Assembly (NCBI GenBank): GCA_012520725.1 | Contig: JAAYNQ010000002.1 | Coordinates: forward strand, 1 to 64,000 | Direction: 5' to 3' | Origin: Syntrophomonadaceae bacterium | Lineage (GTDB): Bacteria; Bacillota; Syntrophomonadia; Syntrophomonadales; Syntrophomonadaceae | DNA: 64,000 nucleotides | Part shown: positions 29,818 to 32,212 of the stretch, piece by piece | Numbering within the stretch: the first letter of the stretch is position 1 | Layout of the letters: each line of letters opens with the position of its first letter | Notes under the pieces: model-generated | The model's database searches: none | What the model saw: only the letters and a program-made list of their open reading frames with translations | Told to the model about the DNA's origin: nothing | Program-made: the position numbers and the translations under genes

Positions 29818-30885
29818 CTATCTGTTTTTCCGCAAAAAGGGAGGTATTTCCAGATCAGCTCTATCCAAAAAAGATGGGGGTGGTTCCATGATCCGGCCTT
29901 TCCCACTATCCCCAGCTATTGAGGGCTTGGCGGTATCAAAACCAGTAGCTATAACAGTGACTCGAACTCCATCATCCAGGTTTTCATCAATATTGGCTCC
30001 AAAAATTATATTGGCTTCCGAGTCTGCAGCCTGATGTATTATTTCAGCTGCTTCATTAATCTCAAACAAGGTAAGATCACTGCCGCCACTAATATTGAAT
30101 AATACCCCCTTGGCCCCCTCGATAGATGTTTCCAGGAGAGGACTGGAAATAGCCAGGCGGGCAGCTTCTGCAGCCCGGTTTTCACCCTTGGCCTGGCCAA
30201 TGCCCATTAGAGCTGATCCTGTATTCTGCATAACCGTCTGGACATCGGCAAAATCACAATTAATGACTCCGGGTACCGCAATCAAATCGGATATTCCCTG
30301 CACGCCCTGCCGTAGAATATCATCGGCTATCTTAAAAGCATCATTAAAGGCGGTGTTTTTATCCACTACCTGTAACAAGCGGTCATTGGGAATGGTGATC
30401 AAACTATCTACTTCGGCTCTAAGGTTATTAATGCCATTCTCCGCCTGGGTATTTCTCTTGCGACCTTCAAAAGTAAAGGGTTTGGTCACTACTCCTACGG
30501 TAAGGGCTCCGATTTGCCTGGCTATTCTGGCCACAATGGGTGCTCCTCCGGTCCCAGTTCCTCCTCCCATACCAGCGGTAACAAAAACCATATCCGCTCC
30601 CTGCAGGGCTGATTTTATTTCATCAGCATTTTCTTCGGCCGCTTTCATGCCTATTTCAGGGTCAGCACCCGCGCCCAGTCCTTTGGTCAGTTTTGCTCCT
30701 ACCTGTATTTTTTTCTCCGCTCGAGATAAATAGAGGGCCTGGGCATCTGTATTGACGGCGATAAATTCTACTCCCTTTAAGCCGGCATCGATCATTCTGT
30801 TAATGGCGTTGTTGCCACCACCACCAATACCGATAACCTTGATGTTGGCGAACTGCTGTATCTCTACATCAAAATCCAATGGCAT
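29818..30885 (-). CDS. ftsZ: Cell division protein FtsZ
   Basis: Tubulin-like GTPase that forms the division ring. GTP-binding signature [12 protein letters not shown] near residue 105; N-terminal [18 protein letters not shown]7 loop [15 protein letters not shown] near 205, where the Asp completes the GTPase site of the neighbour subunit. A very short linker leads to the conserved C-terminal tail [11 protein letters not shown] that binds FtsA and SepF. ATG at 30885 with AGAGGAGG; 355 aa. The longer frame to 30912 has no family support. It follows ftsA by 19 bp. Confidence 0.98.
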
Positions 30886-30904
30886 TAATATACCTCCTCT
30901 AATT

Positions 30905-32131
30905 TTACGCAAAAAAATCTCTTAGCCAATAATTAATTTTATTAAACAGGCCATTAACTCGCGGCTTATTCTCATAACTAAGATCCAGATTATTGCCAGC
31001 GTAGATTAAGCCTCCAATAACAGTAGCATATTCAGGACGATTGATATCTGACTGTACACCACGAAGATTCTCCGGTATCCCCAGTCTGACTGTTATATCC
31101 AAGTGCTTTTCCATTACCTCATCTATGCCTTTGAGTTGTGCTGCCCCACCGGTAAGCACAATCCCACCCGGCATTTGCTCTAAGCATCCAAAACGTTTTA
31201 GCTCAGCATATATCATCTCTATCAATTCTACGACCCGGGCATTTATAATGTCAGCAATAACTTGTTGAGATACCTGTCTGACCTCTTTGCCCCTCAGATT
31301 CTGAACCTTAATAATATTGGCATCAGAAGCCTGTTCGGGTCCTGCTACCCCATCCTCTTCCTTTATTTTCACCGCATGTTCCAGAGAAGTTTTCAACACT
31401 ATTGCTAAATCTCGGGTGATATAATCGCCACCAACAGGTAAAACCGAAGCATGCAAGAGTTTTCCACCTTCAAAATAAGCAATATCTGTGGTGCCTCCCC
31501 CGATGTCGATTAACACTACTCCCATTTCTTTTTCTGCCGGCAGTAATACTGCCTGGGCCGCCAGAATGGGATTATAAATCAGCCGCTCTATCTGCAAATC
31601 AATTTTCTCAGCACAGCGATACATGTTTTGTATAGCTGCAGTAGCGGCAATAACAATGGTCACTTCGGTTTCCAGCCGGCTTCCTACCATACCTACCGGG
31701 TCCTTGACCCCATCATATCCATCAACCACGTATTGTCTTTCAATGGTCTGTACCACACATCGATCCATAGGTAAAGCAACATTTCGTGCCGATTGCAGTA
31801 CCCGGGACTTATCTTCGGTAGCAATTTCATAATTGGGATTGCCTACTGCCACTACGGCGCGATTATTCAAGGTACTGATGCTGCTGCCGGAATAGCCTAG
31901 TATAGCACTGTCAATTTCTTTTCCGGCCAGTCTTTCCAATTTATGCAAACATTCATCTATCACCTTGGCTGCAGTATCTATATCGATAATATTGCCTTTT
32001 CTCAAGCCTTGACTGTCTACCGTTGTTATCCCCAATATATGAATATCCTCGCCGTAGTTTAGCTCAGCCATGGCAGCTTTAATTTTGCTGCTGCCGGCAT
32101 CGAGGCATACTACTATGTTTTGTTTTCTGAT
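30905..32131 (-). CDS. ftsA: Cell division protein FtsA (probable AUC start codon)
   Basis: Actin-like ATPase that tethers FtsZ to the membrane. The first ATG in frame (32071) would begin at [10 protein letters not shown] and lose the first beta strand and phosphate-1 loop. Reading upstream in the same frame gives [20 protein letters not shown], the missing ATP-binding strand, directly before that ATG. Between the upstream in-frame stop and 32071 there is no ATG, GTG, TTG or CTG. The best start is ATC at 32131, 9 bases after AAGGGG; GTT or ATA codons nearby are less well placed. This gives 408 aa. Later motifs: [16 protein letters not shown] near 210, [15 protein letters not shown] near 325. 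The C-terminal amphipathic helix [13 protein letters not shown] is present. Confidence 0.92.
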
Positions 32132-32212
32132 AACAACGCACCCCTTATAAAATGCCTATACTGATAAATACCACAAATGCTTGCCTATTCCTTTAATCGG
32201 GGCTGATTTTCT

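Follow-up and report, generated by a model that had tools for sequence, protein, structure and literature searches.

The ftsA gene of the Syntrophomonadaceae genome analysed here raises the question of where its translation begins. It is encoded on the minus strand of the stretch of DNA under study (the window, 64,000 nucleotides), and its 5′ end reads, 5′ to 3′, TAG (32158-32156) GCA TTT TAT AAG GGG TGC GTT GTT ATC (32131-32129), followed by AGA AAA CAA AAC ATA GTA GTA TGC CTC GAT GCC GGC AGC AGC and then by AAA ATT AAA GCT GCC ATG (32071-32069). The in-frame TAG (32156-32158, minus strand) excludes any start further upstream in this genome and, as the preliminary description had stated, no in-frame ATG, GTG, TTG or CTG lies between it and the first ATG of the frame (32069-32071, minus strand), which a conventional ORF listing takes as the start. 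The same description had proposed initiation at ATC (32129-32131), which follows AAGGGG (32146-32141) by 9 nt, as claimed; AAGGGG is part of the Shine-Dalgarno-like (SD) stretch TAAGGGGTGCG (32137-32147, minus strand). Read from this codon (AUC in the mRNA), ftsA occupies positions 30905-32131 and encodes 408 amino acids plus the stop.

The product is FtsA: it matches TIGR01174 (E = 8.5e-107; 357.4 bits against a cut-off of 175.85), both the FtsA and SHS2_FTSA families of Pfam, and FtsA chains in the PDB. The next gene on the same strand is ftsZ (29818-30886; TIGR00065, E = 1.6e-132), so that ftsA has the location expected of it; the ftsZ start is probably an ATG, and the frame in the ORF listing opens at an upstream TTG (30912). 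With the ATC reading, the N-terminal strand and loop of the ATP site are present, residues 5-21 aligning with residues 8-24 of 7q6g. The argument that a start at ATG 32071 would cost the protein this strand and loop is borne out, as the lost stretch is the one that aligns with the N terminus of 7q6g.

The comparison with related genomes that had been suggested as a check was made on a set consisting mostly of draft assemblies or metagenome bins. In a first search all 61 genomes had some match to the FtsA query, the weaker matches being to actin-like proteins of other kinds. Of the 63 genomes in the order, 56 match at E<=1e-40, and the class is made up of the same 63. The family sample consists of the 47 genomes, from 20 genera, with a readable ftsA 5′ end; outside it are one masked genome with no 5′ end (G063) and the genomes of the order with no usable ftsA match. 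At the codon aligned with the window ATC, we found ATT in 36 genomes, ATC in 10 and ACA in one, while ATG, GTG, TTG and ATA were found in none of the 47. The sole exception, G066, carries its ACA next to a GTG one codon upstream. All 46 AT[T/C] genomes have an SD-like stretch ahead of the codon, with its four Gs conserved at 80-98% per column; in the start column itself A and T are 100% conserved and the third base is only T or C. In the bodies of the same family ftsA genes ATA makes up 644 of the 1738 Ile codons (37%), and the chance of finding no ATA at the start codon would be about 10^-4.2 with the 20 genera taken as independent, an optimistic figure because the genera have common ancestry. 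Both a non-canonical start conserved across species and a strong, well-spaced SD, as seen in genes discriminated by IF3, are found here. Judging from the alignment, the AT[T/C] codon is neither due to chance nor confined to one strain.

It could be argued that initiation takes place at a canonical codon elsewhere, either ATG 32071 or lineage-specific upstream GTG, ATG or TTG codons, the ATT/ATC being internal or untranslated. The ORF listing selects 32071, and 8 of the 46 genomes have an in-frame ATG, GTG or TTG 3, 6 or 9 nt upstream of ATT/ATC, lineages in which initiation may therefore have moved; in four of these (genera g22 and g18) the upstream GTG overlaps the SD and is unlikely to be a start. 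In relatives of Syntrophomonas wolfei, the in-frame upstream codon is a GTG at 9 nt. In 31 of the 46 genomes, representing 15 genera and including the single-contig genome G007, there is no ATG, GTG or TTG from the preceding stop to ATT/ATC, and in the remaining 7 the canonical codons lie upstream of the SD only. Stops come very close in some cases: a TAG stands between SD and ATT in G026, and a TGA overlaps the beginning of the SD in G006 and G028. Downstream, the first canonical codons occur at 15 different distances, with none within 300 nt in one genome, and therefore no common downstream start exists. Moreover, the sister genome G003 (92% identical) lacks an ATG at the codon matching 32071, and the canonical codon that follows in its frame lies 168 nt downstream; a start at 32071 would also delete the ATP-site loop. 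Finally, the ATT/ATC column aligns with the codon at which ftsA begins in genomes from outside the family (see below). A canonical start elsewhere is accordingly very improbable, and the comparison strongly supports the proposed AUC start.

Two further ways of dispensing with an AUU/AUC start are hardly credible. Errors of sequencing or assembly, or a frameshift error, might mask a normal start in a set made up largely of drafts and bins; this is refuted by the occurrence of the same codon class in 46/47 genomes, single-contig ones included. A programmed frameshift could in principle start from the GTG in GGGGTG, which is found within the SD of most genomes. That GTG is accounted for by pairing with the 16S tail and, being inside the SD, has no SD of its own; since it is not universal (it is absent there in, e.g., G034, G006 and G028), we rejected this frameshift as well, with the same near-certainty as the error.

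Outside the family, 91 loci were collected (duplicates L066, L222 and L159 omitted), of which 87 were readable and 4 gave no reading. Each of the 87 starts with a canonical codon, located in the same column or at most a few codons away: 54 TTG, 22 GTG and 11 ATG, a count that includes a change by eye for L061 (TTG to GTG; the script alone gives 55/21/11). For L055, L056, L059, L188 and L225 the codon chosen by the script is too far downstream, the kind of codon being the same. Most of these starts align without gaps with the family ATT/ATC, 10 codons before a conserved Asp; in sister family f2 the GTG is one codon nearer (5/5 genomes), and in sister family f3 a GTG or ATG is a few codons further out (3/3 read). 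In the wider phylum sample (loci L160-L242), ftsA starts are mostly TTG with a strong SD. With 54 TTG and 11 ATG among 87, ftsA starts are therefore weak throughout this sample, and the AUU/AUC of the family, to which this class of ftsA start is limited among the genomes read, is the extreme.

A maximum-likelihood tree was built from 74 FtsA proteins (it lacks incomplete genes and L163, which trimming reduced to zero length), the first residues having been trimmed from the alignment so that the start codon has no influence on it. All 44 family rows group together in a single clade (support 100/100). The branches of the family part of the tree sum to 12.5 changes per site, and the codon changes 5 times on them, one change being that to ACA in G066. 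This pattern is explained by one switch, in an ancestor, away from a canonical start, the new codon having been retained since.

A switch of this kind leaves a serious, if less likely, alternative to selection: the AUU/AUC start would be real yet unregulated, a near-neutral relic left by a single change in the ancestor and tolerated because the SD is strong. The family being a single clade agrees with such a relic, as does the fact that ftsA starts are already weak, mostly TTG, in the phylum sample. It is harder to reconcile with the absence of ATG: this codon is one point mutation away, yet it occurs in 0/47 genomes over 12.5 changes per site of tree.

The behaviour of another gene of the same order, hslU, also argues against near-neutrality, its start shifting between ATG, GTG, TTG and CTG at one column. 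In the window hslU has an apparent CTG start (18060-18058, minus strand) after AAGGAGG; the CTG column is seen in all 5 genomes of the genus and in one other genus, and in other genera of the family the codon is mostly TTG, ATG or GTG. As far as the alignments tell, this variation amounts to ordinary drift, quite unlike the ftsA codon, which is locked.

Both genes were part of a comparison of 85 genes within the genus, made on syntenic regions of up to five genomes. A common canonical start with no conserved upstream stretch was found for 74 of them (51 ATG, 12 GTG and 11 TTG in the window genome), and a general loosening of start codons was rejected on this ground. The other 11, among them ftsA and hslU, were flagged and inspected by eye. 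ftsA was the only gene of the 85 seen to need AUU/AUC; the remaining nine flagged genes were tentatively put down to a conserved SD or promoter sequence, to the edge of a contig, to a TGA upstream that probably encodes selenocysteine, or to an ORF that is itself doubtful (A+ 53863). In genome G000, at about position 73219 of contig 208 and thus not in the window, we noticed a conserved ORF that begins HSATVAGL directly after a stop; it may resemble a formate dehydrogenase in which a TGA is decoded as selenocysteine.

Overall, the reading that we prefer, with a probability of about 0.82, is that ftsA is translated from the AUC at 32131-32129, and that this codon is a selectively maintained weak start, probably sensitive to IF3, that would keep FtsA scarce. 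In the family ancestor a canonical ftsA start, usually already weak (UUG/GUG), would have changed to AUU/AUC at the same position, and selection since then would retain AUU/AUC, the third base alternating for the most part between U and C. The strong upstream SD would place the AUC in the P site, where the ordinary CAU initiator tRNA would read it, and FtsA would therefore still begin with fMet. A pattern scan and ARAGORN indeed identify in the window genome an initiator-like tRNA-Met with an ordinary CAU anticodon and an initiator-type anticodon arm, and an altered initiator tRNA was rejected on this basis; a match to GGGCTATTAACCC on contig 126 was discarded as no tRNA.

We infer the sensitivity to IF3 and the role of the start in FtsA dosage as follows. 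IF3 makes 30S complexes on non-canonical starts dissociate faster (PMC8266586). As such complexes on AUU/AUC are destabilised by IF3, initiation on ftsA would reach only a fraction of the rate seen with AUG. Slow initiation would hold FtsA low relative to FtsZ, whose neighbouring gene starts with AUG: by automatic choice, ftsZ starts are 37 ATG and 1 GTG in the 38 loci found among the 47 family loci, and ATG in 14/23 phylum loci. An imbalance of FtsA to FtsZ reportedly inhibits division in E. coli, in work attributed to Dewar in 1992. With more FtsA, the ring contains less ZapA (PMC9426451).

The region upstream of the gene was also considered. An alignment of the 47 family upstream regions reveals a promoter-like element, AAAGGAATA and GTGGTATTT separated by about 11 nt (32163-32195 on the minus strand, limits approximate), that is conserved in nearly all of them and resembles a sigma-H promoter. 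No RNA structure or other regulatory sign around the ftsA start was found across the family (mean z -0.5, with scores based on mononucleotide shuffles only, 50 per sequence). A low, limited output of ftsA would be in keeping with an SD that positions AUU/AUC in the P site, with the AUG start of the adjacent ftsZ and with the short leader that follows the sigma-H-like promoter.

FtsA synthesis may further depend on free IF3 in the manner of infC, an analogy drawn in the preliminary description that proves apt: all 30 infC loci read in the same order, from 60 genomes with a match, have the same start class (19 ATC, 10 ATT and 1 ATA). If ftsA had been drawn into the IF3 circuit, the balance of free IF3 against 30S subunits would set the synthesis of both IF3 and FtsA, the AUU/AUC start class being common to their two genes. 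We consider this extension rather unlikely; if true, it would tie translation-initiation capacity directly to divisome assembly. As a separate observation, the only ATA among the 30 infC loci (L074) belongs to G066, whose ftsA (L052) is without AUU/AUC.

We found no report of an AUU/AUC start in ftsA in the open PMC literature, and as far as this literature shows, both such a start in ftsA and its family-wide retention are new; AUU-type starts in bacteria as such are already known. The family-wide scope is also new relative to the first observation, made in one genome. To our knowledge, few bacterial AUU, AUC or AUA starts are experimentally accepted. A core division gene that has kept AUU/AUC over at least 20 genera would be strong natural evidence for selection holding a start weak, an argument underlain by the fact that ATG, one mutation from ATT/ATC, is unseen at that codon in 47 genomes. 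It also offers a testable link between start-codon fidelity, through IF3, and cell division. Furthermore, our results suggest that ftsA of this family comes out truncated or wrong when annotated automatically.

Among known systems, E. coli pcnB is reported to have an AUU start (Binns and Masters, 2002). This start lowers the expression of a housekeeping protein, as we propose for ftsA; it concerns another gene in another phylum. In Caulobacter, ftsA proved to start 18 codons further upstream than annotated, and the N terminus missing from the annotation mattered (PMC4117421); the likeness is a start correction restoring an important N terminus, while no AUU/AUC start is evident in that case.

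The S. aureus infC (AUA), cvfC1 (AUU) and ccpN (AUA) genes have mapped non-canonical starts with an extended SD; in poor medium, the AUU/AUA starts of cvfC1 and ccpN reached about 10% of the expression obtained with AUG (PMC13009471). There, as in our family, a non-canonical start is conserved behind an extended SD in a Gram-positive, and an output below that of AUG, as in S. aureus, would be expected of ftsA too. cvfC1 and ccpN differ in being a regulator and a small-protein gene with experimentally mapped starts, whereas ftsA is a core divisome gene whose start is derived by comparison.

In the same organism as the window ftsA, infC belongs to the AUU/AUC/AUA start class, of which it is the classic, IF3-autoregulated gene, and it has a similar SD spacing. 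It differs in encoding the discriminating factor itself and in having its AUU/AUC-class start also in sister families, whereas ftsA, in the genomes read, starts in this way within a single family only. Placed side by side, the two starts of the window genome read GGAGGTGAACTTCTT ATC AGC AAG in infC and AAGGGGTGCGTTGTT ATC AGA AAA in ftsA.
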